From positions 1 to 64,000 of the forward strand of contig CAILMI010000009.1 in the NCBI GenBank assembly GCA_903835255.1: a stretch of DNA of 64,000 nt, given 5' to 3'. Positions 2-48,496 of the stretch are shown here, in pieces. Made by a program: the position numbers and the translations under genes. The notes beneath the pieces are model-generated. The model ran no database searches. It worked only from the letters and a program-made list of their open reading frames with translations, and was not told the DNA's origin. Numbering within the stretch: position 1 is the stretch's first letter; every line of letters starts with the position of its first letter. This DNA is from an uncultured Verrucomicrobia subdivision 3 bacterium. GTDB taxonomy: Bacteria; Verrucomicrobiota; Verrucomicrobiia; Limisphaerales; UBA11358.

Positions 2-1861
2 GACGACGACTACATCACGAACAATCCCCCGGTCAAGCAGGGGCTGACCTGGGCCGGCCTCCGCTGGGCGCTGACCACCTGGCACGCGAGCAACTGGCAT
101 CCTCTGACCTGGGTCTCCCACATGGCTGACTGCTCGCTCTTCGGGCTCAACGCCGGGGCGCACCACTTTGTCAGCGTCCTCCTCCACGCCGCCAATGCGG
201 CATTGCTCTTCCTCCTGCTGTTCCGGCTGACCGCCGGGCTGTGGCCCTGCGCGTTCATCGCCGCGCTGTTCGCCTGGCACCCCCTCCACGTGGAATCCGT
301 CGCCTGGGTCGCCGAACGCAAGGATGTCCTCAGCACCTTCTTCGCCCTGCTGTCGCTCTTGAGCTACACCCGGTACGCAAAAGAAAACTGCCGTCGCAGC
401 TTCTGGTTCGCAGTCCTGTTTCTGGCGCTCGGACTCATGGCTAAACCCATGCTCGTGACCCTCCCTTTTATCCTCCTTCTCCTGGATCATTGGCCCCTTC
501 GCAGAACCGGCTCAGAGTCGCCGGCCGCATTGCTCCGCGAAAAAACTCCGTTCTTCCTCCTTGCTGCCGCCGCCTGCGTCGTGACCTTCCTCGCCCAACA
601 CCAGGGGGCCGCCGTGGCGACACTGGAGAAAGTTTCTCTGGCCTACCGCCTGGAAAACCTGCCCGTGGCTTACGCGGGGTATCTGTCCAAGATTTTCTGG
701 CCGGCCAACCTCGCTGTCTTTTATCCGCTGCCGGAATGCTATCCCGCCGCTACCGTGGCCGCTGCGATCGCCGTACTCATCCTGATCTCCGTCGGCGCCT
801 GGCGCGCGCGCAAGGGCAGCCCATACGGAATCATCGGCTGGCTCTGGTTCCTCGGGATGCTGGTGCCGGTCATCGGCCTGGTGCAGGTCGGCGATCAGGC
901 GTTAGCCGACCGCTACACTTATTTTTCCGCCACCGGCATCTTCCTCGCCGTCACCTTCGGGGCCGGCGCGCTGGCCCGACGATTTTATGTTCCCGGGGCG
1001 CTGCTGACCGTCGTCGCTGCGGGAATCCTCGCCGCCTGTCTGGCGCTGACGGTGCACCAGCTGCGCTACTGGCGTAATGCCGAAACCCTGTTCCGCCACG
1101 CCATCGCTGTCACCGGCGAGAACGAGACAGCGCAGCTGAACCTGGGCGCCGCCCTCGAATCGAAAGGGGATTGGAAGGGCGCGCTGATCCACTACCGCGA
1201 GGCTCTCCGACTGAATACCAAATCGTATGAGGCGTTCAGCAACATCGGCAAAATCCTCTACGAACAAGGTCAGCCCGCCGCCGCCCTAGAATACTGCGTC
1301 CAGGCCGTCCAAATCAACCCGGGTCGGGCCACCCTGCACAACAATCTCGCCCTCGTGCTCGCCGAATTGGGGCGCTTCGATGAGGCCATTCAGGAATGCT
1401 CCCTCGCCATCCAACTGGACCCCCGCTACGCATCCCCCCGTTTTCAAATGGGCAAACTATTGTTAAAAAAAGGCCTCGGAACCGAATCAATTGCCAATTT
1501 AAAAGAGGCGTTAACGATAGAGCCTGATAATTATCCGATGCTGGTTTATGTGGCTCGCGTGCTGGCTTCGGATGAGAATCCGCAGGTCCGGAACGGGGCG
1601 GAAGCCGTTGCCCTGGCTGTCCGGATCCAGCGTCTCAGTCCGCAGCCCCAGCCGGTGGCGCTGGATACGATGGCGATGGTCTATGCGGAGGTGGGGAACT
1701 TTAAGTTAGCGCGCCAGCTTCAGGAACAGGCGGTGAACCTGACCGAGGTCGCGGGCCAAAAAGAGGATGCGGCGGCTCTGCGCAACCGGCTGGAACACTA
1801 CGCGCAGGGTCAGCCTTGGCGGGAATCCTTCCGGATCACCCCGGCGCCAGGAACAAAATAA
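2..1861 (+). CDS. Membrane glycosyltransferase-like protein with TPR tail (5' end outside window)
   Basis: The reading frame is open from base 2, so the gene starts before the window; the first ATG at 122 is internal. The visible part is 619 residues. The first ~340 are hydrophobic with many membrane spans and begin with DDDYITNNPPV, an acidic loop of the kind seen in O-mannosyltransferase/TMTC-like proteins, followed by NWHPLTWVSHM. From about residue 375 there are at least four tetratricopeptide units (for example NLGAALESKGDWKGALIHY). This layout, a GT39-like membrane domain followed by TPRs, is common in Verrucomicrobiota. The likely role is transfer of sugar from a lipid carrier to exported protein. 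Substrate is not readable. It ends against the convergent toxin-antitoxin region. Confidence 0.8.
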   Translation, partial: DDDYITNNPPVKQGLTWAGLRWALTTWHASNWHPLTWVSHMADCSLFGLNAGAHHFVSVLLHAANAALLFLLLFRLTAGLWPCAFIAALFAWHPLHVESVAWVAERKDVLSTFFALLSLLSYTRYAKENCRRSFWFAVLFLALGLMAKPMLVTLPFILLLLDHWPLRRTGSESPAALLREKTPFFLLAAAACVVTFLAQHQGAAVATLEKVSLAYRLENLPVAYAGYLSKIFWPANLAVFYPLPECYPAATVAAAIAVLILISVGAWRARKGSPYGIIGWLWFLGMLVPVIGLVQVGDQALADRYTYFSATGIFLAVTFGAGALARRFYVPGALLTVVAAGILAACLALTVHQLRYWRNAETLFRHAIAVTGENETAQLNLGAALESKGDWKGALIHYREALRLNTKSYEAFSNIGKILYEQGQPAAALEYCVQAVQINPGRATLHNNLALVLAELGRFDEAIQECSLAIQLDPRYASPRFQMGKLLLKKGLGTESIANLKEALTIEPDNYPMLVYVARVLASDENPQVRNGAEAVALAVRIQRLSPQPQPVALDTMAMVYAEVGNFKLARQLQEQAVNLTEVAGQKEDAAALRNRLEHYAQGQPWRESFRITPAPGTK

Positions 1862-30840: not shown

Positions 30841-31866
30841 TCAGGCCTGATGCAACAGCTTTCCGGCGGAGGGGAACTGGCGGCGCCACAGGCACGGCAG
30901 GGGATAGCTGGCCAGCGAGCGCAATAAAACCCCATGCACCTCCTGGCGCGAGACTTTCACGCGCAGCTGCAATGCGGCCGGATCCGCCCCGCGCAGCTTT
31001 TGAATCGTCCGCGCGCCGAGCAGCACCGGCCACGCGCACGCGAGGCGGACCCGGCATTGCGAGAAGGGCAGGGTGTTGGTGTATCTCCAGCCGGCAGCGA
31101 GATGCGCCTCCGCCGCGTCCAGATACTCCCGGTAGAGGGGCAGGAACTTTCCTGCGTTATCGGCCGACAGCAGTGTTTCGGGGGTCAGCCCGGCGGCCGC
31201 CAATCGGTCGGCCGGCAGATAGCAGCGTCCATTTTTTAAATCCGCTGGCAAATCCCGCAAAATATTGACGAGCTGCAATCCCCGCCCGAAACGGATGCCG
31301 TCGGCGACCAGTCGCGCCTCGTCCAGCTCCGCGCGGGGAAATAAATGCGCCCGGCAGAGCTTTGTCCAGAATTCGCCCACGCACCCGGCCACGCGATAGG
31401 TGTAGTCTTCCAGTTCATCCGCCGTTTTCAGCGCCGCGATTTTTCCCGCGCCCGCCCCGGCAAACCGGCGCAGATCCAGCTCCTGCCCGCTGGTAATGGT
31501 GACCAGAACCTCCCGGACGAGTTGTAGATCGGCGGCCGAAAGCGTTGCCAGCAGGGCGAGGCTGGCCCCGGCCTTTTCCAGCAGGATTTTTTCGGCGGGC
31601 GACCCCTGGTGTTCTGCGAGATCGCGGAAATCCACCGGCCCAGCCGGGGAGCCCAGAAAGTGCTCGCGCAGAAGTTGCAGCGCCTGCAGCCGTTGCGTGA
31701 GCGGGACGATTTCGGTGTCGGCGATGGTGTCGGTGGTGCGCGCGAGCAGGTAGGCCAGGCCGATTTGTTGGCGCACGGCGCCCGGCAGCACGCGCAGCGT
31801 CAGGTAAAAGGAGCGCGCCGTGGTGCGGAGCAAATCGTTCACTGTATCGGCGGACAGGGGCGACAT
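30841..31866 (-). CDS. Squalene/phytoene synthase family protein
   Basis: A trans-isoprenyl diphosphate head-to-head synthase. First Asp motif LARTTDTIADTE, second VNILRDLPADLKNGRCYLP; N-terminal TARSFYLTLRVLP carries the usual SF/Y pair. ATG at 31866 gives MSPLSADTVNDLLRTTARSF; an ATG at 31902 is also in frame. It could make squalene, dehydrosqualene or phytoene. Because the desaturase cluster at 39-47 kb looks C30-type, a farnesyl-diphosphate-using (C30) role is the better guess. It lies 20 bases past the small exported protein gene and divergent from the M4 protease. Confidence 0.85.
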   Translation of the reverse strand: MSPLSADTVNDLLRTTARSFYLTLRVLPGAVRQQIGLAYLLARTTDTIADTEIVPLTQRLQALQLLREHFLGSPAGPVDFRDLAEHQGSPAEKILLEKAGASLALLATLSAADLQLVREVLVTITSGQELDLRRFAGAGAGKIAALKTADELEDYTYRVAGCVGEFWTKLCRAHLFPRAELDEARLVADGIRFGRGLQLVNILRDLPADLKNGRCYLPADRLAAAGLTPETLLSADNAGKFLPLYREYLDAAEAHLAAGWRYTNTLPFSQCRVRLACAWPVLLGARTIQKLRGADPAALQLRVKVSRQEVHGVLLRSLASYPLPCLWRRQFPSAGKLLHQA

Positions 31867-39422: not shown

Positions 39423-41150
39423 TCAGTTGCTGTCTTTGCTTGTCCGTGGCGCAGGCTTGTCCGCCTGCGGATGTTTGATTTCCTGGAGGGCCTGGAGGGC
39501 CTGGAGGGTGCTGTGTGCCAGCCGTTGCAGCGGCGCGGGGGAGCACTCGCCGTGTTCGCTGGCCAGCACACGGCCGGCGGTGTCCAGCAGGAAGACGTTG
39601 GCCTCATTCTCCCGGCATGGCAGCGCAGCCGGCAGCCGGCCCGAGGCGTCCAGAAGGATGGGATAGCTGCACTGTTGGCGGAATCTTCTGCGGATGAGTC
39701 CCTGGACCCACCCGGGGGCTCCCCGGATATCCGCCACGCCCATCAGGGGCAGGTCCTGACCGCAGCGCGCCTTGAGCGCCACCACCCATGCGGCGATTTG
39801 GTCTGACCCTTTCCGGTCGGAGATAATTAAAATCATTGGCGCGGATTGAGGGAAATGGATGGAATGGTTGGTGCCAAACTGATCAGACAGGTCAAAGCTG
39901 GAGCAGACCCAATTTGTTGCGGCCGCCGCGGTGTCAGCGGAATCGGCCCGGCCCGGACTGGCGGCCAGCAGCGTTGCGAGGGCGAGCATCGGAATAATCC
40001 GGGTAACGTCCGAGGGGGGCGGAGCAGAAGACGCCGGATATTCCCGATTTTTCCAGCGCATTGGGCGGCCCCGGATTTTCCGGGCCAGCGCCTGCCATTG
40101 GATGAGGAGCAGTCCGAGGACGCCGAGGGGGTGCAGCAGGGCGCCCGCCCAGGATTGGCGGAAGCGCCGGGCCGCAATCAGCCGCGGCAGGAGCGCGAGT
40201 CCGCTGGCTAGAGCGGCCAGAAAAAACGCCCGCGATCCCGGTGCCGCCAGCAGCAGCAGGACGAACGGAAGGATTTGGCCGAGCCCCAGCAGGAGGGTGA
40301 AGGGCAGGATTCGGGCGGGGGCCGCGAGGCCTTCGGTGGCGTTTTTGCCCAGGCCGCGCCAGGTTTCCGCGTTGGTGCAATACATCCGGCAGGTGGCCAG
40401 ATCCGTGGCATCAAACAGGTCCGTGGCCCATCCGGCCTGGCGGAATGCGCGCGGCAGCCGGAGGCCGTCGTGCAGGGATTCCCGGAGGCCCGCATGGCCG
40501 CCGCATTTCTGATAGGCATCGCGCCGGGCGATGAAGAGCTGTCCGCAGCCGGCGGCGAACGCGGGCGCCGTGGTCTCACGCATCCGGCGCAGCGGGAGGA
40601 ATCCGAGCAGAATGAAATGGATCAGCGGTATCAGCAGCCGTTCCGCCAGCGTACCGGTTTCCTGGCGCGGCACGCCGCTGGCCAGCCCGGCCTCGCTCTG
40701 CGCCATCCACGCCGTCAGCCGTTGAATCGCATCGGGCGCCAGGCGGACATCGGCATCTAAAAAAATCAGCCACGGATGCCGGGCCAGTCCGGCCAGAACA
40801 TGACAGGCATGGGGCTTGCCGCACCAGCCGGCTGGCAGCGGCGGCGCCGTTTCCAGGCGCACCCGCGGGTCGCGCGCCGCGAGGGCGGCGACGAGGGCCG
40901 CGGTGCCGTCGGTGGACTGGTCATCGAGCACGATGACTTCCAGCGCGGGTGCGGGGCAGGCGAGCACGGCTTCGAGGGTGGCGCGGAGGTTGAGTTCCTC
41001 ATTGCGCGCCGGGATCAGGACGCTGACCGGCGGTACGGGGTCGGGGCCGGATTTTGGGAGTCGGCGATAGGCCGAAAGGTTGGCCAGAAAAAGGCCGCAG
41101 GGCAGGGCGGCTACAATCAGGGCGAGGAAGGCCAGGATTTCCAGATTCAT
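39423..41150 (-). CDS. Family 2 glycosyltransferase fused to a redoxin-like domain (CrtQ-like)
   Basis: Residues 1-~375 are a membrane glycosyltransferase like CrtQ of staphyloxanthin synthesis: N-terminal helix, PVSVLIPARNEELNLRATLE, LDDQSTDGTAALVAAL, DxD in FLDADVRLAP, and several C-terminal helices. A further hydrophobic segment (MLALATLLAASPGRA) then leads to ~150 residues (~414-560) with a thioredoxin-like pattern (PMILIISDRKGSDQIAAW... YPILLDASGRLPAAL... NVFLLDTAGRVL) but no CxxC. The fusion is unusual. ATG at 41150 overlaps the acyltransferase stop (ATGA). It is the last gene of the operon and probably adds a sugar to the carotenoid end group. Confidence 0.8.
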   Translation of the reverse strand: MNLEILAFLALIVAALPCGLFLANLSAYRRLPKSGPDPVPPVSVLIPARNEELNLRATLEAVLACPAPALEVIVLDDQSTDGTAALVAALAARDPRVRLETAPPLPAGWCGKPHACHVLAGLARHPWLIFLDADVRLAPDAIQRLTAWMAQSEAGLASGVPRQETGTLAERLLIPLIHFILLGFLPLRRMRETTAPAFAAGCGQLFIARRDAYQKCGGHAGLRESLHDGLRLPRAFRQAGWATDLFDATDLATCRMYCTNAETWRGLGKNATEGLAAPARILPFTLLLGLGQILPFVLLLLAAPGSRAFFLAALASGLALLPRLIAARRFRQSWAGALLHPLGVLGLLLIQWQALARKIRGRPMRWKNREYPASSAPPPSDVTRIIPMLALATLLAASPGRADSADTAAAATNWVCSSFDLSDQFGTNHSIHFPQSAPMILIISDRKGSDQIAAWVVALKARCGQDLPLMGVADIRGAPGWVQGLIRRRFRQQCSYPILLDASGRLPAALPCRENEANVFLLDTAGRVLASEHGECSPAPLQRLAHSTLQALQALQEIKHPQADKPAPRTSKDSN

Positions 41151-41959
41151 TGCGCGCCGTGCTCCTTTTGGAAGGACTGTCCGCGCAGTCGGGCTTGCAT
41201 CGAGCGCCACCAGTCGTAGAGGCCGCCCTGGCCGGCCCCGCCGCGCAGCAGGGTTTTAAACTCCGCCGGATCCCGCCGCTGGACCTGAAGGGTGAGCGCG
41301 TCCTGCGTGGCGGCCAGTTTCTGCTCGAACAGCGCCGTCCATCCGGCGGCATCGCGGCTTGCGGCGTCCGCCGCGCCGATAGTCACCGGCTCGCCAAAGC
41401 GCACCAGGATTTCCGGCAGCCGCTCTTCCCAAAAAATGAGCTCGGTGGCCATGGGCAAAAAGACCGCCCCCTCGGCGCGCGCCGCCAGATGCCCCAGCCC
41501 GGCCTCAAATCGGACCGGCCGTTCGCGCACATCCGCAAAGCGCCCCTGCGGCGTGATCAATAGCAGGGTGTCGGGCGCGCTCAGGAGATTGTTGGCGGTG
41601 CGGAGAAATTGCGCCGCGCCCCGCCGCGTGCTGCGCTCCACCCCGAAGAATCCGAGCTTCCGGAACAGTTTGTATTTTTGGAGCGCGGCCGCATCCATCG
41701 GCGCAAACGCATTGCGACCGCCAAAGAATTCCGCCTTTAACACCAGCCCCACCAGCGGATCCCACCACGAGGAATGGTTGCCATAAAGGACCAGCGCCCT
41801 GGCAGTGTCCGGAGGCGGAAACCCGTCGCGCGCGACGCGGAGTGAATGAAAATGGCGCCGCAGGTATCGGCGGGAATAGGCGATGAACCAGCGGAGGAGC
41901 CAGGGCGAAATTACCGGACCCGACTCCTCCGCCGGGCGAGATCGGTTCGGCTGGCTCAT
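41147..41959 (-). CDS. PlsC-type acyltransferase, possible carotenoid acyltransferase (CrtO-like)
   Basis: A 270-residue acyltransferase with the HX4D motif NHSSWWDP, the FGVERSTRRG block and LITPQGRFADV (PEGTR-like). In the staphyloxanthin route the last step is addition of a fatty acid to the sugar; position between the oxidase and the glycosyltransferase makes that role likely here, though the family also acts on glycerolipids. ATG at 41959 has a strong GGAGGAGGG just upstream, rare in this window. The 88-base gap before it contains a short GC stem (42011-42023) followed by GTTTTATTTT on the minus strand, a possible weak attenuator. Confidence 0.8.
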   Translation of the reverse strand: MSQPNRSRPAEESGPVISPWLLRWFIAYSRRYLRRHFHSLRVARDGFPPPDTARALVLYGNHSSWWDPLVGLVLKAEFFGGRNAFAPMDAAALQKYKLFRKLGFFGVERSTRRGAAQFLRTANNLLSAPDTLLLITPQGRFADVRERPVRFEAGLGHLAARAEGAVFLPMATELIFWEERLPEILVRFGEPVTIGAADAASRDAAGWTALFEQKLAATQDALTLQVQRRDPAEFKTLLRGGAGQGGLYDWWRSMQARLRGQSFQKEHGAQ

Positions 41960-42047
41960 ACCCTCCTCCGCGCGTTGCCTAAGAGGTTGCCCGCCCAAAG
42001 AAAATAAAACTCCGGCTCCCGGAATCTGTTTTTTTTGGGAGTGAGAT

Positions 42048-43604
42048 TCATGCGGTCTGGGAGAGGAGTTCGGATTCGGGGGAAAGCGACCCGGTCCCGC
42101 CATCCCGGTCGAGCGTGTCGCCGGCGATCCAGCCGCTCATAAGCACCATGGGCATGCCTGGGCCGGGATGCGCGGCGCCGCCCGCCAGATACAGCCCGCG
42201 CACATCCGGCGACCGGTTGCCCGGCTTGAAGGCGCCCAGGAAACGGCCGTGACTGGCCAGCCCGTAAATCGCCCCGTCCAACACCTGATACCGGTCGTGG
42301 ATATCCTGGGGCGTCAGCGCCCGCTCGAACACGATCCGGTCCTCGATGTCCTTCATGCCTCCGGTGGTCTTGAGCTTGTCCAGGATGACCTTCCGGTAGC
42401 TGGGGAAAAGCGTGCGCCAGTCGTGATGCGGTCGCAGGTGCGGCGTGTGGACCAGGACGTACAGGGCCTCGCCGCCGGCGGGCGCGGTGCCGGGTTCGCT
42501 GCAGGTGGTCGCCGCCAGATAGCAGGTGGGATCGGGGGCGGGCTCCCCTTTTTTATAGATGAAATCAAACTCCTCATGCGGGTCGCGGCTGAAGACGAAG
42601 TCGTGATGGGCCAGGTGCTCATAGCGGCGGTTCAGGCCGAGATACAGCACCACGCCGGAGCAGGCGGGCTCGTAACGGCGGCGCCGCTCGAATGCGGCTC
42701 CTGCCGGTCCCCCGAGCAGTTCGCGGTGGGTGCGGACCGAGTCGCTGTTGGAGACTACGGCCGACAGCTCGATTTCCCGGCCGTCGCCGGTGCGCACGCC
42801 GGTGACGGCGCCCTCGCGGGTCAGGATTTTATCAATCGGGGTGCCGGTCTGGATTTCCACGCCGAGTTCCCGCGCGAGGGCGGCCAGCGCGCGGGGCACG
42901 GCCGCGGTGCCGCCGAGGGGGTACCAGATGCCCTCGTCGGTCTGCATATGGGCGATGCCGCACAGGACCGCGGGGGAGCCGGATGGCGAGGAGCCGACAT
43001 ACTGGGTGAAGTGGTCCATCATCTGCGCCACGCGTGGGTCCGGGGTGTGCGCGCGGACGACGCCGGCCACCGTGCGGCCCATCTTCATATTCATCACGTC
43101 GCTCAGGACGCCCGGCTGGAGCGAGGCCTTGAAGTCGAACATGTCGCGCAGGCCGCCGATGGGCTTATAGAAAAAATAGCGCTGGGAGATGTCGTTGAGT
43201 TTTTTGGAAAGCTCCATGAACTGCCGGTAACGGGCGCCGGAGCGGGTGCCGGGCGAAAACAAGTCGAGCCGGTCGGCCATCGCCGCTGTGTCCTGCTCCA
43301 GATCGAGGCGGGAGCCATCGGCGAAGAAACAGCGCCATTGGGGATCGAGGCGCACCAATTCGAGATAGTCCTCTATCCGACGCCCGGCTTCGCTGAAGAT
43401 GCGCCGCAGCACGGAGGGGATGGTCACGATGGTCGGGCCCATGTCGAAACGGAATCCTCCGCCCTCGAGCACCGCCGCCTTGCCGCCCAGCCAGTCGTTG
43501 CGCTCGAACAGGATGACGCGATGGCCCCGCGCGGCCAGGGTGCAGGCCGCCGCCAGGCCGCCCAGACCGCCGCCGATGATGCCGATGGGAAGAGACTTTT
43601 TCAT
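42048..43604 (-). CDS. CrtP/CrtN-type carotenoid oxidase or desaturase
   Basis: A 518-residue FAD protein of the CrtI/CrtN family: dinucleotide site GIIGGGLGGLAAACTLA, FERNDWLGGKAA, FDMGPTIVTIPS, and C-terminal LYLAGGAAHPGPGMPMV. Paired with another CrtN-like enzyme and an aldehyde dehydrogenase, it is most simply the oxidase that converts the terminal methyl of a C30 chain to an aldehyde (CrtP/CrtNb role), but sequence alone does not separate desaturase from oxidase. Its ATG overlaps the dehydrogenase stop. Confidence 0.82.
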   Translation of the reverse strand: MKKSLPIGIIGGGLGGLAAACTLAARGHRVILFERNDWLGGKAAVLEGGGFRFDMGPTIVTIPSVLRRIFSEAGRRIEDYLELVRLDPQWRCFFADGSRLDLEQDTAAMADRLDLFSPGTRSGARYRQFMELSKKLNDISQRYFFYKPIGGLRDMFDFKASLQPGVLSDVMNMKMGRTVAGVVRAHTPDPRVAQMMDHFTQYVGSSPSGSPAVLCGIAHMQTDEGIWYPLGGTAAVPRALAALARELGVEIQTGTPIDKILTREGAVTGVRTGDGREIELSAVVSNSDSVRTHRELLGGPAGAAFERRRRYEPACSGVVLYLGLNRRYEHLAHHDFVFSRDPHEEFDFIYKKGEPAPDPTCYLAATTCSEPGTAPAGGEALYVLVHTPHLRPHHDWRTLFPSYRKVILDKLKTTGGMKDIEDRIVFERALTPQDIHDRYQVLDGAIYGLASHGRFLGAFKPGNRSPDVRGLYLAGGAAHPGPGMPMVLMSGWIAGDTLDRDGGTGSLSPESELLSQTA

Positions 43605-45106
43605 GTGTGATCCGTGGAATTTGAACGGTGTTTAAGAGATTTTAAAATCTGGGTCAGACCCTGCCAGCGCATCCGCCAGCCGCGCCCGTGCGCGGCCCGG
43701 ATGTAGCCCGTAAATAATGCGGAGTCGCCCGCGTGCGGGGCGTCCAGATGGGGCCGGGCCTTTCCGCGGCGGACAGAGAGAACCTTGGGCGCGGTCATTT
43801 CCAGCAGGCCTTCCGAGCCGCGTGTGACGCCAAAGCCGCTGCGGCCCCGTCCGCCAAAGGGCAGGCGCGGGTCCGCGGTGGGCACAATCACATCGTTGAT
43901 GATCACCCCGCCGACGCGGAGGCGGGCAGCCAGGGAGCGGGCCGCGGCTTCGTCGCTACTGAACAGGGTGGCGCTGAGGGCGTAGGGGCATTGCGCTGCA
44001 AACGCAATCGCCTCCTCGTCATTGGCCACGGTAAGGAGCGAGAGCACCGGGGCAAAAATATCCTCACGCACCAGCCGCATCCCAGGTGTGACACCGGTGA
44101 AAATCAGCGGCAGGCGGAGTGAGCCGTCCGACGCGATGGCTCCGGTCAGCAGGCGCGCGCCCGCAGCCAAAGTTTCCCTGAGGAGTTCTGCCAGGTGTGG
44201 ATTTGGCGGCAGGGTGTCGTTGGTATTCTTATCGGGAGGGAATCGCCGAGACAGGCGGTCGGCGAGTTCCGCCGCCCGGGTGGGATGCACCAGCACGCGG
44301 CGCGGGGCGATGCAGGTGGCGCTGCCGTTGAGGCGCAGTCCAAAGGCAAGGGATCGGACGACCAGATCTAGATTCGCGTCGTCGCGAACGATCAGGGCGT
44401 CGCAACCGGAGAGTTCCACCGTGGCGGGCGTGAGGGTGGTGGCGCATTGGTGGAGCACCGCTTCGCCGGTTGTGGTATTGCCGGTCAGGAAAACTTTGTC
44501 CACGCCGCACCGGATGGCGGCTTGCGCTGCGGCGGGCGTTTCCGGAAGCACCTGGCAGAGGTTGGAATCCAGTCCCGCGTTTGCGAGGAGTCTGGCCAGT
44601 GCCGCAGCGGCAGGTCCGCCTCCGTGTCCGGGCTTGATTAGAACGGCGTTGCCGGCGGCGAGCGCTTGCAGCATTTGTACGCCTGGCAGGAAGAGCGGGT
44701 AATTGCCGGGCCCGATGAGGAGCACCACGCCGTGAGGTTCGCGGTGAATCTCGCTGCGCAGGCCGCCCAGCCAGAACGGCCGCCCGCGCGGGCCCAGGCG
44801 CCGGGGCTGGAGCGTTTTCCGGGCGGTGCGCTCGAGAAAACGGCAGGCCTCGGCCAATGGCAACACCTCAGAGGTCAGAATTTCAGCGATAGAACGGGGG
44901 CGTAGTATGGCGGCGGACTCTGCGAGTGCGATCGCCTGTTCCGCTATCAAGGCGCGGACGCAGCGCAGCTTTTTTAGTCGGATTGCCACGGGCAGCGCGC
45001 TCCAGTTGGTCTGCGCGCTGCGCGCCGTGAGGATGGCCTGATTGACCCTGTCCTCCAGCACGCTGTCCGCGGCGACGGTGGGGTCGCGATGAATCAAGGC
45101 GGTCAT
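43601..45106 (-). CDS. Aldehyde dehydrogenase, probable carotenoid aldehyde oxidation
   Basis: A 501-residue NAD(P)-dependent aldehyde dehydrogenase: LIGPGNYPLFLPGVQMLQAL, LIKPGHGG, FLTGNTTTGE, catalytic Glu in VELSGCDA and catalytic Cys in LNGSATCIAPRRV. Both ends overlap CrtN-family genes by four bases. The order crtN-ald-crtN is the one known from C30 carotenoid clusters of methanotrophs, and AldH oxidises the carotenoid aldehyde to the acid in staphyloxanthin synthesis. The last ~45 residues are an unusual extension. Confidence 0.85.
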   Translation of the reverse strand: MTALIHRDPTVAADSVLEDRVNQAILTARSAQTNWSALPVAIRLKKLRCVRALIAEQAIALAESAAILRPRSIAEILTSEVLPLAEACRFLERTARKTLQPRRLGPRGRPFWLGGLRSEIHREPHGVVLLIGPGNYPLFLPGVQMLQALAAGNAVLIKPGHGGGPAAAALARLLANAGLDSNLCQVLPETPAAAQAAIRCGVDKVFLTGNTTTGEAVLHQCATTLTPATVELSGCDALIVRDDANLDLVVRSLAFGLRLNGSATCIAPRRVLVHPTRAAELADRLSRRFPPDKNTNDTLPPNPHLAELLRETLAAGARLLTGAIASDGSLRLPLIFTGVTPGMRLVREDIFAPVLSLLTVANDEEAIAFAAQCPYALSATLFSSDEAAARSLAARLRVGGVIINDVIVPTADPRLPFGGRGRSGFGVTRGSEGLLEMTAPKVLSVRRGKARPHLDAPHAGDSALFTGYIRAAHGRGWRMRWQGLTQILKSLKHRSNSTDHT

Positions 45107-46659
45107 GCGGCGACGGCGTCCGTGTCGCGGGCGTGCGCCATCGGCAAGCTGGGTGCGCCGGCAATTTTTTTCCAGTCGACGCTACGGCCAAAATCCTCGA
45201 GCAGGAGGCGGGAGCTGATCCGAGCGCTTTCGAAAATCACCGGCAGGCCGCTGCCGGGGTGGGTGCCGCCGCCGACGAGGTACATCCCCTCCAGATCTTC
45301 AAACCGGTTGTTGGGGCGGAGGTGCAGCATCTGGTCGAGGCTGTGCGCCAGATTAAAAGTTGCCCCCCGGTAAATCTCATAGCGCGTGTCCCAGTCGGCC
45401 GGTGTGATGACGCGTTCGTAGCGGATCCGGGATTCCACCCCGCCAAAGCCGGCCTTGGCAATCTGCCTTAGGAGGAGGTCGCGGAATTGTTTTTTTTCCT
45501 TTGCCCAATCCACGTTGGGATGCTGGTGGGTGACCGGCGCGAGCACGTAGAGCGCGCTGTGGCCGGGCGGCGCGAGCGTGGGATCGGTGACGCTGGCATT
45601 CTCGACGTAGAAGGAGGGGTCGGCGCTCAGGACGTGGCGTCCCTCGATCTCGTCGAGGTTGCGCGTGTAGTCTTCGGCGATGTGAATGTTGTGGTGCGGC
45701 TCCTCGTACCGTCCCTCAAGGCCCAGATAGAGCATGAAGGTCGAGCAGGAATATTTTTTCCGGGCCAGCTTCCGGTCTGTCCAGCGCCGCCGCAGAGTGT
45801 CTGGCACCAGGGTTTGCATCGCCCGGGCGAAATCCGCATTGACCACCACAGCGTCGGCGGGATGGGTGCCATCGGGGGTGCGCACGCCCACGGCCTTGCG
45901 TCCGGCGAACAGGATCTCTTGGACGGGCGCGTTGAGATGGATTTCCACTCCCAGCCGTTCTGCGACGCGCGCCATGGCGGCCGTGATTGCGGCGCAGCCG
46001 CCTTTGGGATGCCAGACGCCGTGTTCGTATTCGAGGAAGCTGAGGATGCTGAACAGGCTGGGGCAGCGGAACGGCGACATGCCCAGGTATTTGGACTGGA
46101 AGCAGAAGGCGAGCCGCACGCGCTCATCCTTGAAAAAACGGCGGAGGGAGGCGTCCACGGATTGATGCGGCCGCAGCATCGGCAGCATTTTCAGCAGGCG
46201 TTTGTCCAGCAGGCTCTTCCAGCCCTTGAAATCCATCTCCAGGCACGGCTCCATGAGCGCGAGCTTGGCGCGGTTTTCCGCGAGGAACCGCCGGAAACCG
46301 GGGGCATCGGCGGGGGCCAGCGCAGCAATCTGCTGCTCCATCCGGGCCGTGTCCGCCGTGCAATCCATCCGCCCGCCTGCCCCGAAGGTGAGCCGGTATT
46401 GCGGATCCAGCCGTGTCAGTTCGACCTCACGCCGCAGATCTGCGCCGCCGATCCGGAAGATCTCCTCCAGAACGCGCGGGTAGAGAAAAAACGTCGGGCC
46501 GAGATCAAACGTGTAGCCGTCGGCCTGGAGATGGGAGGTGCGCCCGCCGACCAGAGGCAGCCGCTCCAGAATTTTCACGCGCACCCCCTGGCTGGCGAGC
46601 AGGATGGCTGACGCGAGTCCGCCGGGTCCGGCGCCGATGATGATGACTTGCCGGCTCAT
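45103..46659 (-). CDS. CrtN-type carotenoid/squalene desaturase
   Basis: First gene of the leftward operon, 518 residues. FAD site VIIIGAGPGGLASAILLASQ, ERLPLVGGRTSH, FDLGPTFFLYP, and C-terminal MYLVGGGTHPGSGLPVI. It belongs to the CrtI/CrtN desaturases; in this setting it probably desaturates a C30 chain (squalene or dehydrosqualene). A C40 phytoene desaturase role is the alternative. No Shine-Dalgarno is visible before the ATG. A promoter and regulator sites lie 60-90 bases upstream. Confidence 0.85.
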   Translation of the reverse strand: MSRQVIIIGAGPGGLASAILLASQGVRVKILERLPLVGGRTSHLQADGYTFDLGPTFFLYPRVLEEIFRIGGADLRREVELTRLDPQYRLTFGAGGRMDCTADTARMEQQIAALAPADAPGFRRFLAENRAKLALMEPCLEMDFKGWKSLLDKRLLKMLPMLRPHQSVDASLRRFFKDERVRLAFCFQSKYLGMSPFRCPSLFSILSFLEYEHGVWHPKGGCAAITAAMARVAERLGVEIHLNAPVQEILFAGRKAVGVRTPDGTHPADAVVVNADFARAMQTLVPDTLRRRWTDRKLARKKYSCSTFMLYLGLEGRYEEPHHNIHIAEDYTRNLDEIEGRHVLSADPSFYVENASVTDPTLAPPGHSALYVLAPVTHQHPNVDWAKEKKQFRDLLLRQIAKAGFGGVESRIRYERVITPADWDTRYEIYRGATFNLAHSLDQMLHLRPNNRFEDLEGMYLVGGGTHPGSGLPVIFESARISSRLLLEDFGRSVDWKKIAGAPSLPMAHARDTDAVAA

Positions 46660-46716: not shown

Positions 46717-46745
46717 AATATGTCCAAGTTGATTCCTCTTGTCCA
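46717..46745 (-). promoter_or_regulatory. Candidate sigma-70 promoter of the carotenoid-type operon
   Basis: On the minus strand TGGACA (46745-46740) and CATATT (46722-46717) are separated by 17 bases, giving a leader of about 50 bases to the ATG at 46659. Both boxes overlap TGTCCAA-type sites, which is what a repressor-controlled promoter would show. Confidence 0.45.
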
Positions 46746-46905
46746 ATGTTTGTCTCACTATTTTAGGGTGTCCTAAAAAGGCTGAACGGCGGGGTTCCAA
46801 TGTGATTTCAATAGGTTTTATCTTGATTAAACGGGGATGGGTTGGGACAGTGCCGGAAAGTCGCCGGGGCGTCTGTTTATCTTTTGTCTAAATTATAATG
46901 TCCAA
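46720..46905. promoter_or_regulatory. Cluster of TTGTCYAA-type direct repeats, putative regulator sites
   Basis: Copies on the plus strand: ATGTCCAA (46720), TTGTCCAA (46739), TTGTCTCA (46750), TTGTCTAA (46884), ATGTCCAA (46898). The second and third start exactly 11 bases apart. ATGTCCAAGTT and TTGTCTAAATT fit the 11-bp CarH half-site pattern nTGTnnAnnTn as I remember it; the others fit partly. A palindrome TTTTAGG-N4-CCTAAAA (46761-46778) lies between the clusters. Confidence 0.5.
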
Positions 46906-47836
46906 AGCGCATTATGCGATCCAGGCCGTCGTCCGCCGCACGGGGTTAAGCGCCCATCGCATCCGTGTCTGGGAGCGGCGCTATGGGGCGATCGCGCCGG
47001 AGCGCACACCCGCCGGACGCCGGCTGTATTCCGAGGCGGAGATGGAGCGACTAACGCTGCTGAGGGATGCTCTCCGGGCCGGTCACCGGATTGGCCAGAT
47101 CGCAGCCCTGTCGCTGGCCCAACTCAAAAAACTTGGGGTGGACATGCATCCCTCGGTTCCGGCGGGATCCCGTCGCCGCCTCCCGTCGCGGCTTTCGTAT
47201 CTGGAAGACTGTCTGGTGGCGGTGAAGCGGCTGGATGCCCGGGGGTTGGAGTCCGCCTTGAATCGGGCGGTCGCGGATTTGGGGTCGCAGGGGGTGTTGC
47301 AGCGCGTCGTGGCGCCGCTGGTGCAGACCATTGGCGACCTTTGGCGGTCGGGCGCCTTGACCGCGGCGCATGAGCGTTTTTCCAGTGCGGCCCTCCGGGT
47401 TTTTCTGGGGCATGCGGCTGGGGCGTTTTCCCTCCCGGCGACCGCGCCCGGGCTGGTGGTGGCCACTCCGTCGGGCCAGATCCACGAACTGGGCGCGCTG
47501 CTGGTCGGGGCGGCAGCGGCTAATCTGGGGTGGCGCGTGACGTATCTTGGCGCGGGCCTGCCAGCGGCCGAAATTGCCGGAGCCACAAAACAGAGCGGGG
47601 CCCGGGCCGTGGCGCTGAGCCTGGTCTATCCGGAAGACGACCCGCAGCTCGCAGCGGAGCTGGTCCGGCTCCGCGGATTGCTGCCAGCCGGCATGCCCCT
47701 TCTTCTTGGAGGGCGGGCCGTTCCGGCCTACGCCGCCGCCCTGAATAAAATCAAGGCCCTTAAAATCAAGGATCTGGTGCACCTGGGGGAGACACTCGAC
47801 GCCCTCCGTGCGCCGTCCCGAAAAAACAAACGATGA
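46898..47836 (+). CDS. MerR-family regulator with B12-binding domain (CarH/LitR-like)
   Basis: 312 residues. The MerR helix-turn-helix (residues ~6-75; VVRRTGLSAHRIRVWERRYG) is followed by a four-helix segment and a cobalamin-binding Rossmann domain with QIHELG (His196, the lower B12 ligand) and VTYLGAGLPAAEI. In CarH the light sensor also needs W-x9-EH and a His right after the Trp. Here Trp149 and Glu159 are kept but both histidines are arginine (Arg150, Arg160). So B12 binding is plausible while classic photoresponse is doubtful. Divergent from the carotenoid-type operon and first gene of a three-gene set. No Shine-Dalgarno; a TTGTCTAA site lies just before the ATG. Confidence 0.87.
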   Translation: MSKAHYAIQAVVRRTGLSAHRIRVWERRYGAIAPERTPAGRRLYSEAEMERLTLLRDALRAGHRIGQIAALSLAQLKKLGVDMHPSVPAGSRRRLPSRLSYLEDCLVAVKRLDARGLESALNRAVADLGSQGVLQRVVAPLVQTIGDLWRSGALTAAHERFSSAALRVFLGHAAGAFSLPATAPGLVVATPSGQIHELGALLVGAAAANLGWRVTYLGAGLPAAEIAGATKQSGARAVALSLVYPEDDPQLAAELVRLRGLLPAGMPLLLGGRAVPAYAAALNKIKALKIKDLVHLGETLDALRAPSRKNKR

Positions 47837-48042
47837 ACTCTTTTTTTAAACCTAATATCAGCCCCCGCGGACGCTGGGTGCGCGGGATCGGTGCCGTCGG
47901 CTTACTGATTGGTGCCGGCTTTGCCTTTGCCGCCTCTTTCTGGCTGGGCCTGGTGCTGGCGGTCTCCGGCGGCTTTGTGCTGTTCGAGGCATTGCGCGGC
48001 TGGTGCGCCCTGCGGGCGTGCGGCATCAAGACCAAGCTTTAG
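47833..48042 (+). CDS. DUF2892-like small inner-membrane protein
   Basis: 69 residues with two membrane helices (GAVGLLIGAGFAFAAS and LGLVLAVSGGFVLFEAL) and the end RGWCALRACGIKTKL, typical of the YgaP-type DUF2892 family, with two cysteines. Its ATG overlaps the regulator stop (ATGA). Function unknown; the coupling suggests it is part of the same response. Confidence 0.75.
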   Translation: MNSFFKPNISPRGRWVRGIGAVGLLIGAGFAFAASFWLGLVLAVSGGFVLFEALRGWCALRACGIKTKL

Positions 48043-48052
48043 GGCGCGCCTT

Positions 48053-48496
48053 ATGAACGAGTTCATTTTTGAAACCGAGCTTTGGCTGCCGCATCCGCGC
48101 AACGAGGTGTTCGCCTTTTTTGGCGACGCCCATAATCTGGAACGGATCACGCCGCCCTGGGTAAACTTCGCGGTGCTCACGCCCGCCCCAATTGTAATGC
48201 GGCCGGGCATCTTGATTGATTATCGCATCCGCATCCACGGCGTGCCGGTCCGCTGGCGCACGGAAATCAGCGCGTGGCAGCCGCCGTTTCAGTTTGTGGA
48301 TGAACAGCGGCGCGGCCCCTACCGGCTCTGGCATCATACCCACACGTTTGAGGAGCGGGAGGGAGGCACGCTCTGCCGCGACCGGGTGCGATATTGGCCA
48401 AGGGGCGGGGCGTTGATGAACTGGCTGTTCGTTCGTAAGGATGTGGAGCGGATTTTTGAGTACCGCCGTCAACGTCTGGTGGAAATCTTTCCCTGA
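48053..48496 (+). CDS. SRPBCC (START-like) ligand-binding protein
   Basis: 147 residues: FETELWLPHPRNEVFAFFGD, ERITPPWVNFAVL, GTLCRDRVRYWPRGG. This is the cyclase/dehydrase-like SRPBCC group that binds hydrophobic ligands and recurs near LitR/CarH-type regulators. It lies ten bases after the DUF2892 gene. A role in carrying or modifying a carotenoid or lipid is possible but inferred. Confidence 0.82.
   Translation: MNEFIFETELWLPHPRNEVFAFFGDAHNLERITPPWVNFAVLTPAPIVMRPGILIDYRIRIHGVPVRWRTEISAWQPPFQFVDEQRRGPYRLWHHTHTFEEREGGTLCRDRVRYWPRGGALMNWLFVRKDVERIFEYRRQRLVEIFP

Follow-up and report, generated by a model that had tools for sequence, protein, structure and literature searches.

A CarH-type regulator with an altered Wx9EH cap beside a carotenoid gene cluster in the Verrucomicrobiota

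Known B12 photoreceptors and the protein at this locus

In the adenosylcobalamin (AdoCbl) photoreceptor CarH of Thermus (TtCarH), whose numbering is used here for positions 131, 132, 140, 141, 142 and 177, Trp131 stacks against the adenosyl group and Glu141 forms a hydrogen bond with it; upon illumination, the cobalt comes to be ligated by His132 (PMC10442372). The H132A variant of TtCarH is mostly tetrameric in the light and water ends up on its cobalt; the paper describing this variant itself mentions an earlier report of disassembly. The light-state spectrum of TtCarH, with His on the cobalt, has its band at about 359 nm, and that of the aquo/hydroxo form, as in H132A, at about 352 nm. AdoCbl photoreceptors characterised so far include proteins with Arg, Gln or Tyr at position 132 (PMC11796333). 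In both CtMerR (Arg) and SasPcob (Gln), light removes the adenosyl group and the product is aquo- or hydroxocobalamin, with no bis-His state (PMC11796333; PMC10979010); illuminated SasPcob is a monomer in which the Glu/His helix has moved (PMC10979010), and the CtMerR light structure, obtained anaerobically, did not monomerise. The Wx9EH cap motif serves to call proteins B12 photoreceptors. Its EH pair was reported as absolutely conserved and critical among CarH homologues (PMC8156234), is part of the published light-sensing signature (PMC11796333) and, in SasPcob, connects the adenosyl group across the dimer interface (PMC10979010). CarA of Myxococcus has kept the B12 motif and has a damaged Wx9EH.

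We analysed a 64-kb stretch of DNA (hereafter the window) carrying a carH gene and its carotenoid neighbours (Table 1). The original prediction of a CarH-like regulator is borne out by homology to TtCarH over the full length of the protein (phmmer against 3whp/5c8d, E ~1e-25, residues 4-308 aligned) and by the Pfam domains MerR_1, B12-binding_2 and B12-binding, all above their cut-offs. An AlphaFold2 model built with 62 homologues as input has a mean pLDDT of 90.9, with values below 50 confined to the inter-domain linker and the C-terminal tail, and the best Foldseek matches of this model in the PDB are all TtCarH.

We then compared the protein with the published definitions of the family. The N-terminal MerR winged helix with a C-terminal four-helix/Rossmann B12 module is the arrangement of class I CarH/LitR proteins, and the sequence also places tandem 11-bp direct repeats, another class I feature, at a carotenoid promoter. 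The B12 motif D/ExHx2Gx41SxT/Vx22-27GG is found with its lower-ligand His and the right spacing (Q194-I-H196-E-L-G199, S241, V243, G271-G272), its first D/E being Gln as in 137 of 150 homologues. Of the SignatureFinder motifs for a light-responsive cobalamin-binding domain (GxxW, EH, GxxH, GxxxP), three are present as GDLW, GQIH and GAGLP and the fourth reads ER for EH; the intact Wx9EH of class I is likewise replaced by W149-x9-E159-R160. The top NCBIfam family is the CarH equivalog NF052513, whose cut-off of 400 bits the protein, scoring 114.5, does not reach. Since the domain, B12-motif and operator definitions fit and those based on Wx9EH, SignatureFinder and NCBIfam do not, we call the protein a CarH-type regulator with an altered cap rather than an established class I CarH.

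Table 1. Coordinates of the features described at the carH locus, in window positions
Feature	Position	Strand	Basis
Glycosyltransferase family 2 with C-terminal extension	39423..41210	-	PF00535; CruG/HpnB-like below cut-off
Acyltransferase (PlsC-like)	41147..42103	-	PF01553
Second CrtI-family desaturase	42048..43604	-	TIGR02734, 404.9 bits
Aldehyde dehydrogenase of the carotenoid cluster	43601..45106	-	PF00171, E=5e-82
CrtI-family desaturase (first gene of the divergent crt cluster)	45103..46659	-	TIGR02734, 531.9 bits (cut-off 238)
Sigma70-like crt promoter TGGACA-17-CATATT, within the operator	46717..46745	-	Consensus match only
Operator-like 11-bp direct repeats ATGTCCAAGTT (46720), TTGTCCAATGT (46739), TTGTCTCACTA (46750)	46720..46760	+	PWM scan
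Lone repeat TTGTCTAAATT, immediately before the carH start	46884..46894	+	PWM score 14.2
carH, 312 aa	46898..47836	+	Internal stops absent; Pfam, TtCarH alignment, AlphaFold2/Foldseek
CarH domains	MerR residues 6-71; four-helix B12-binding_2 102-170; Rossmann B12-binding 186-282		Pfam
Trp149 (TtCarH W131; adenosyl-stacking, Wx9EH)	47342..47344	+	Codon reading and alignment
Arg150 (for TtCarH His132, bis-His upper ligand)	47345..47347	+	CGG
His158-Glu159-Arg160, HER (family consensus HEH)	47369..47377	+	Codon reading (CAT 47369-47371, GAG 47372-47374, CGT 47375-47377) and homologues
His196, lower axial cobalt ligand (QIHELG; TtCarH H177)	47483..47485	+	CAC
Small ORF, 69 aa, overlapping the carH end	47833..48042	+	Adjoins carH in at least 36 of 130 loci
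SRPBCC/polyketide_cyc protein, conserved carH neighbour	48053..48496	+	PF03364; in at least 40 of 130 loci

Carotenoid genes, operator and promoter

The divergent crt genes are laid out in a way that resembles acyl-glycosyl carotenoid-acid clusters. CrtI_A homologues lie close to carH in at least 31 of 130 homologous loci, a count that, like those for the two genes after carH (Table 1), is a lower bound since many loci are short. The recurrence of the 69-aa ORF and the SRPBCC gene after carH in many Verrucomicrobiota loci suggests a conserved carH operon. Also present in the genome are two SQS_PSY-type synthases, of which one lies at 30943-31830 of the window, a cobalamin riboswitch and a gene for a PduO-type adenosyltransferase; this last gene contradicts the idea that AdoCbl would be unavailable to the host.

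To delineate the operator, we used the regions upstream of 125 homologues, in which identical 5-mers occur at 11-bp spacing 291 times versus ~55 times at other distances. The resulting motif reads wTGTCTAnnTw and corresponds, on the opposite strand, to the TtCarH operator repeat nAnnTnnACAn (PMC8156234). A repeat matrix built without the window's own sequence was used to score 13-mers across the 64 kb, and four of the ten best sites (starts 46719, 46738, 46749 and 46883) fall within the 238-bp gap between crtI and carH, the single repeat just upstream of the carH start being the best-scoring repeat site of the whole window. The three operator repeats are spaced by 19 and 11 bp, and this 0/+19/+30 architecture recurs upstream of 36 of the 125 homologues, window included; in several close relatives it stands at the same distance from the carH start codon, give or take a base or two. 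Judged by sequence, the window thus has the DNA elements with which a CarH repressor would interact, and decay of the operator was ruled out by the conservation of the repeats and the promoter. In relatives, the +19 repeat is frequently TGTCAA, which is TTGACA on the other strand; the crt -35 box and this operator repeat therefore seem to share their bases.

Cap residues across the CarH family

To assess how unusual the cap is, homologues were collected from the window's order, other Verrucomicrobiota, GTDB contigs and plasmids, and residues were counted over 178 non-identical sequences, the window protein among them. The alignment to TtCarH pairs W149 with W131, R150 with H132, H158 with E140, E159 with E141, R160 with H142 and H196 with H177. 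Together with the codons, it confirms that lower-ligand His196, Trp149 and Glu159 are present and that Arg150 and Arg160 replace both cap/upper histidines; as had been predicted, the residue that follows the Trp cannot provide bis-His ligation in this protein.

Trp131 and Glu141 were each found in 177 of the 178 sequences and His177 in 176. Position 132 is Arg in 101, Gln in 38 and His in only 8, the rest having other residues, and position 142 is His in 176 and Arg in 2. The description of the light-sensing histidines as lost holds up in part: Arg142 is unusual, whereas His132 cannot be said to have been lost from a position that is almost never His in the family. Arg after the Trp, the main point of the original prediction, is on these counts the family's common state, with characterised precedents, and what is unusual is only that Arg has replaced the final Wx9EH His, a single substitution. 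A loss of both histidines in one event was rejected on the same grounds, R132 being the family norm and only R142 rare.

The only other carrier of Arg142 is a MAG sequence (L045) that differs at 8 nucleotides from a sister (L048) with His142. The maximum-likelihood tree requires two changes to Arg at this position and, since the near-identical sister of L045 has His, Arg142 arose twice, independently. H142R might be a mutation of recent date, harmful or close to neutral, or an error in a MAG consensus, in a gene that is losing light sensing, with no new mechanism involved. The closeness of L045 to its His-bearing sister indicates that such changes appear without obvious compensation, and among 78 columns conserved at 95% or more the window protein, which sits on a long branch, deviates at four (V21R, V32I, N40G and H160R), the highest count of the set. 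Yet the next sequences reach three, its ORF is intact and its operator conserved, and a base-call error in both cases is unlikely given the same change in an otherwise invariant column of two unrelated MAGs. We hold this explanation to be quite improbable.

The window protein has an additional His, H158, directly before the Glu, and the corresponding position 140 is His in 144 of the 178 sequences and Gln in 23. His140 might thus be a relocated upper ligand that replaces His132 and binds cobalt after light: in the 177 sequences with an intact Trp, His132 and His140 never occur together (7 have only His132 and 143 only His140), and four changes on the tree are required to account for where His132 occurs. 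Against this, an independent-pairs test of the exclusion on the tree was not significant, 27 of the 177 have neither His, and in illuminated CtMerR and SasPcob the cobalt carries water or hydroxide (PMC11796333; PMC10979010). We regard a relocated ligand as very doubtful, and the His132/His140 exclusion as a lead, not a result; it does single out a concrete candidate residue, position 140. We know of no structure that puts this residue near the cobalt.

A third possibility is a CarA-like, B12-independent repressor, with light acting through another pathway or not at all. The incomplete motif of the window protein recalls the damaged Wx9EH of CarA. CarA is, however, defined by the absence of the Trp and the Wx9EH flanks, and the window protein keeps Trp149, its flanks and the Glu. 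Our search of the genome for a second CarH copy, which could have taken over light sensing, found none; the sole other match was to the B12 domain encoded within a large ORF of C61. A CarA-like repressor is highly unlikely in our view.

Other departures from the family pattern were seen in the survey. The few Verrucomicrobiota homologues with His132 (L178, L185, L166, L167 and L189) all have Gln at position 140. One sequence from a Verrucomicrobiota MAG (L021:1501-2451) has Cys for the lower-ligand His (GQICELG) with an intact EH cap, the sole such case among the 178. On plasmid 2 of Gemmatirosa kalamazoonensis (NZ_CP007130.1; L239:1501-2253), the homologue has Val for the cap Trp and Arg for the Glu, and its lower-ligand His is gone (GQFEELG); this protein is probably cobalamin-independent, a CarA-like loss in the Gemmatimonadota. 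In a member of the window's genus (G016; L004), an in-frame TAG interrupts the DNA-recognition region (EKR*GAV) of the CarH homologue, a possible pseudogene. Two CarH copies occur in several genomes of the order (for example G165, G266, G109, G088 and G121), and the order-level genome survey found no CarH in most species of the window's own genus at the threshold used.

Proposed light response and comparison with known systems

We consider it fairly probable that the window protein is a dark-state, AdoCbl-dependent repressor of the crt genes that is relieved by light without bis-His ligation, and has an adenosyl cap that has been tuned or weakened. An altered but retained light switch is favoured because the Trp, the Glu, the lower His, the operator and the AdoCbl-supply gene have all been kept. 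From these features we infer its cofactor, oligomerisation, repression, light response and the effect of Arg160 as follows. In the dark, AdoCbl would be bound base-off through His196 with its adenosyl group capped by Trp149 and Glu159, and the oligomerised protein would sit on the 11-bp repeats that overlap the crt promoter. Illumination would break the Co-C bond and release the adenosyl group, leaving aquo- or hydroxocobalamin on His196; the Glu-bearing helix would then move, loosening the oligomer and freeing the crt promoter. The bis-His step of TtCarH would be omitted, as for SasPcob and partly for CtMerR. Arg160, a private change, probably modifies the polar contacts that form a network at the adenosyl/dimer interface and would tune affinity or light sensitivity with the sensor type unchanged. 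It could keep, strengthen or break the EH network there, and H142R may impair AdoCbl binding, since the EH pair is described as absolutely conserved, critical and part of the light-sensing signature. Evidence against the repressor model comes from the mostly tetrameric state of illuminated TtCarH H132A and from residues R176 and D201, which are not kept.

The original prediction went further, to a sensor without B12 photochemistry or with a different cobalamin, and this finds no support: R150 is no argument against light sensing, since CtMerR and SasPcob, with Arg and Gln there, photolyse AdoCbl, and such a reading also faces the PduO adenosyltransferase gene and the intact carotenoid operator and promoter. 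Non-photochemical sensing is possible but unsupported. In its fullest form, the H142R change atop R132 would have broken the cap and left a non-light cobalamin sensor, or a reader of methyl- or hydroxocobalamin or of redox state. The rarity of H142R, a change within a motif described as critical if AdoCbl is to be recognised, together with the intact lower-ligand His, is consistent with such a sensor; the intact adenosyl-contacting Trp and Glu (PMC10442372), the adenosyltransferase, the conserved crt operator and the working precedents for R132 argue against it, and we judge it unlikely. We find it rather doubtful, though somewhat worth entertaining, that the protein is a natural CarH-type regulator with both Thermus upper-face histidines changed to Arg in which light, or some other signal, is read through a different upper-face chemistry, either a water/hydroxide-ligated state gated by Arg160 or ligation by a relocated His158.

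The published signature would reject the window protein (ER for EH) despite its full carotenoid operator and context, and the protein bears on whether the last His of Wx9EH is truly needed. The bis-His end state of TtCarH through position 132 is, for its part, unavailable to most of the family members found here.

Among known systems, TtCarH (CarH/LitR; PDB 5C8D/5C8E/5C8F) shares with the window protein the domain order, the cap Trp and Glu, the lower-ligand His, the 11-bp direct-repeat operator and the divergent carotenoid genes. It differs in H132 and H142, both Arg in the window protein, and in the salt-bridge/interface residues R176/D201, which are Ile/Gly, at an overall identity of ~28-29%. 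CtMerR (PDB 8JBS/8JBT), an AdoCbl photoreceptor, is likewise of the MerR type with Arg after the Trp, but retains the His of the EH pair where the window protein has Arg. The photocobilins SasPcob and AbDPcob have the same four-helix/Rossmann AdoCbl module and also lack His132; both respond to light, SasPcob without bis-His ligation, as we suppose for the window protein, from which they differ by a biliverdin-binding globin domain and a kept EH pair. CarA of Myxococcus xanthus likewise combines MerR and B12-binding parts, is found at carotenoid genes and has a damaged Wx9EH, the damage being of another kind: CarA has lost the Trp and its flanks and kept the EH, whereas the window protein has kept the Trp and the Glu and changed the His.
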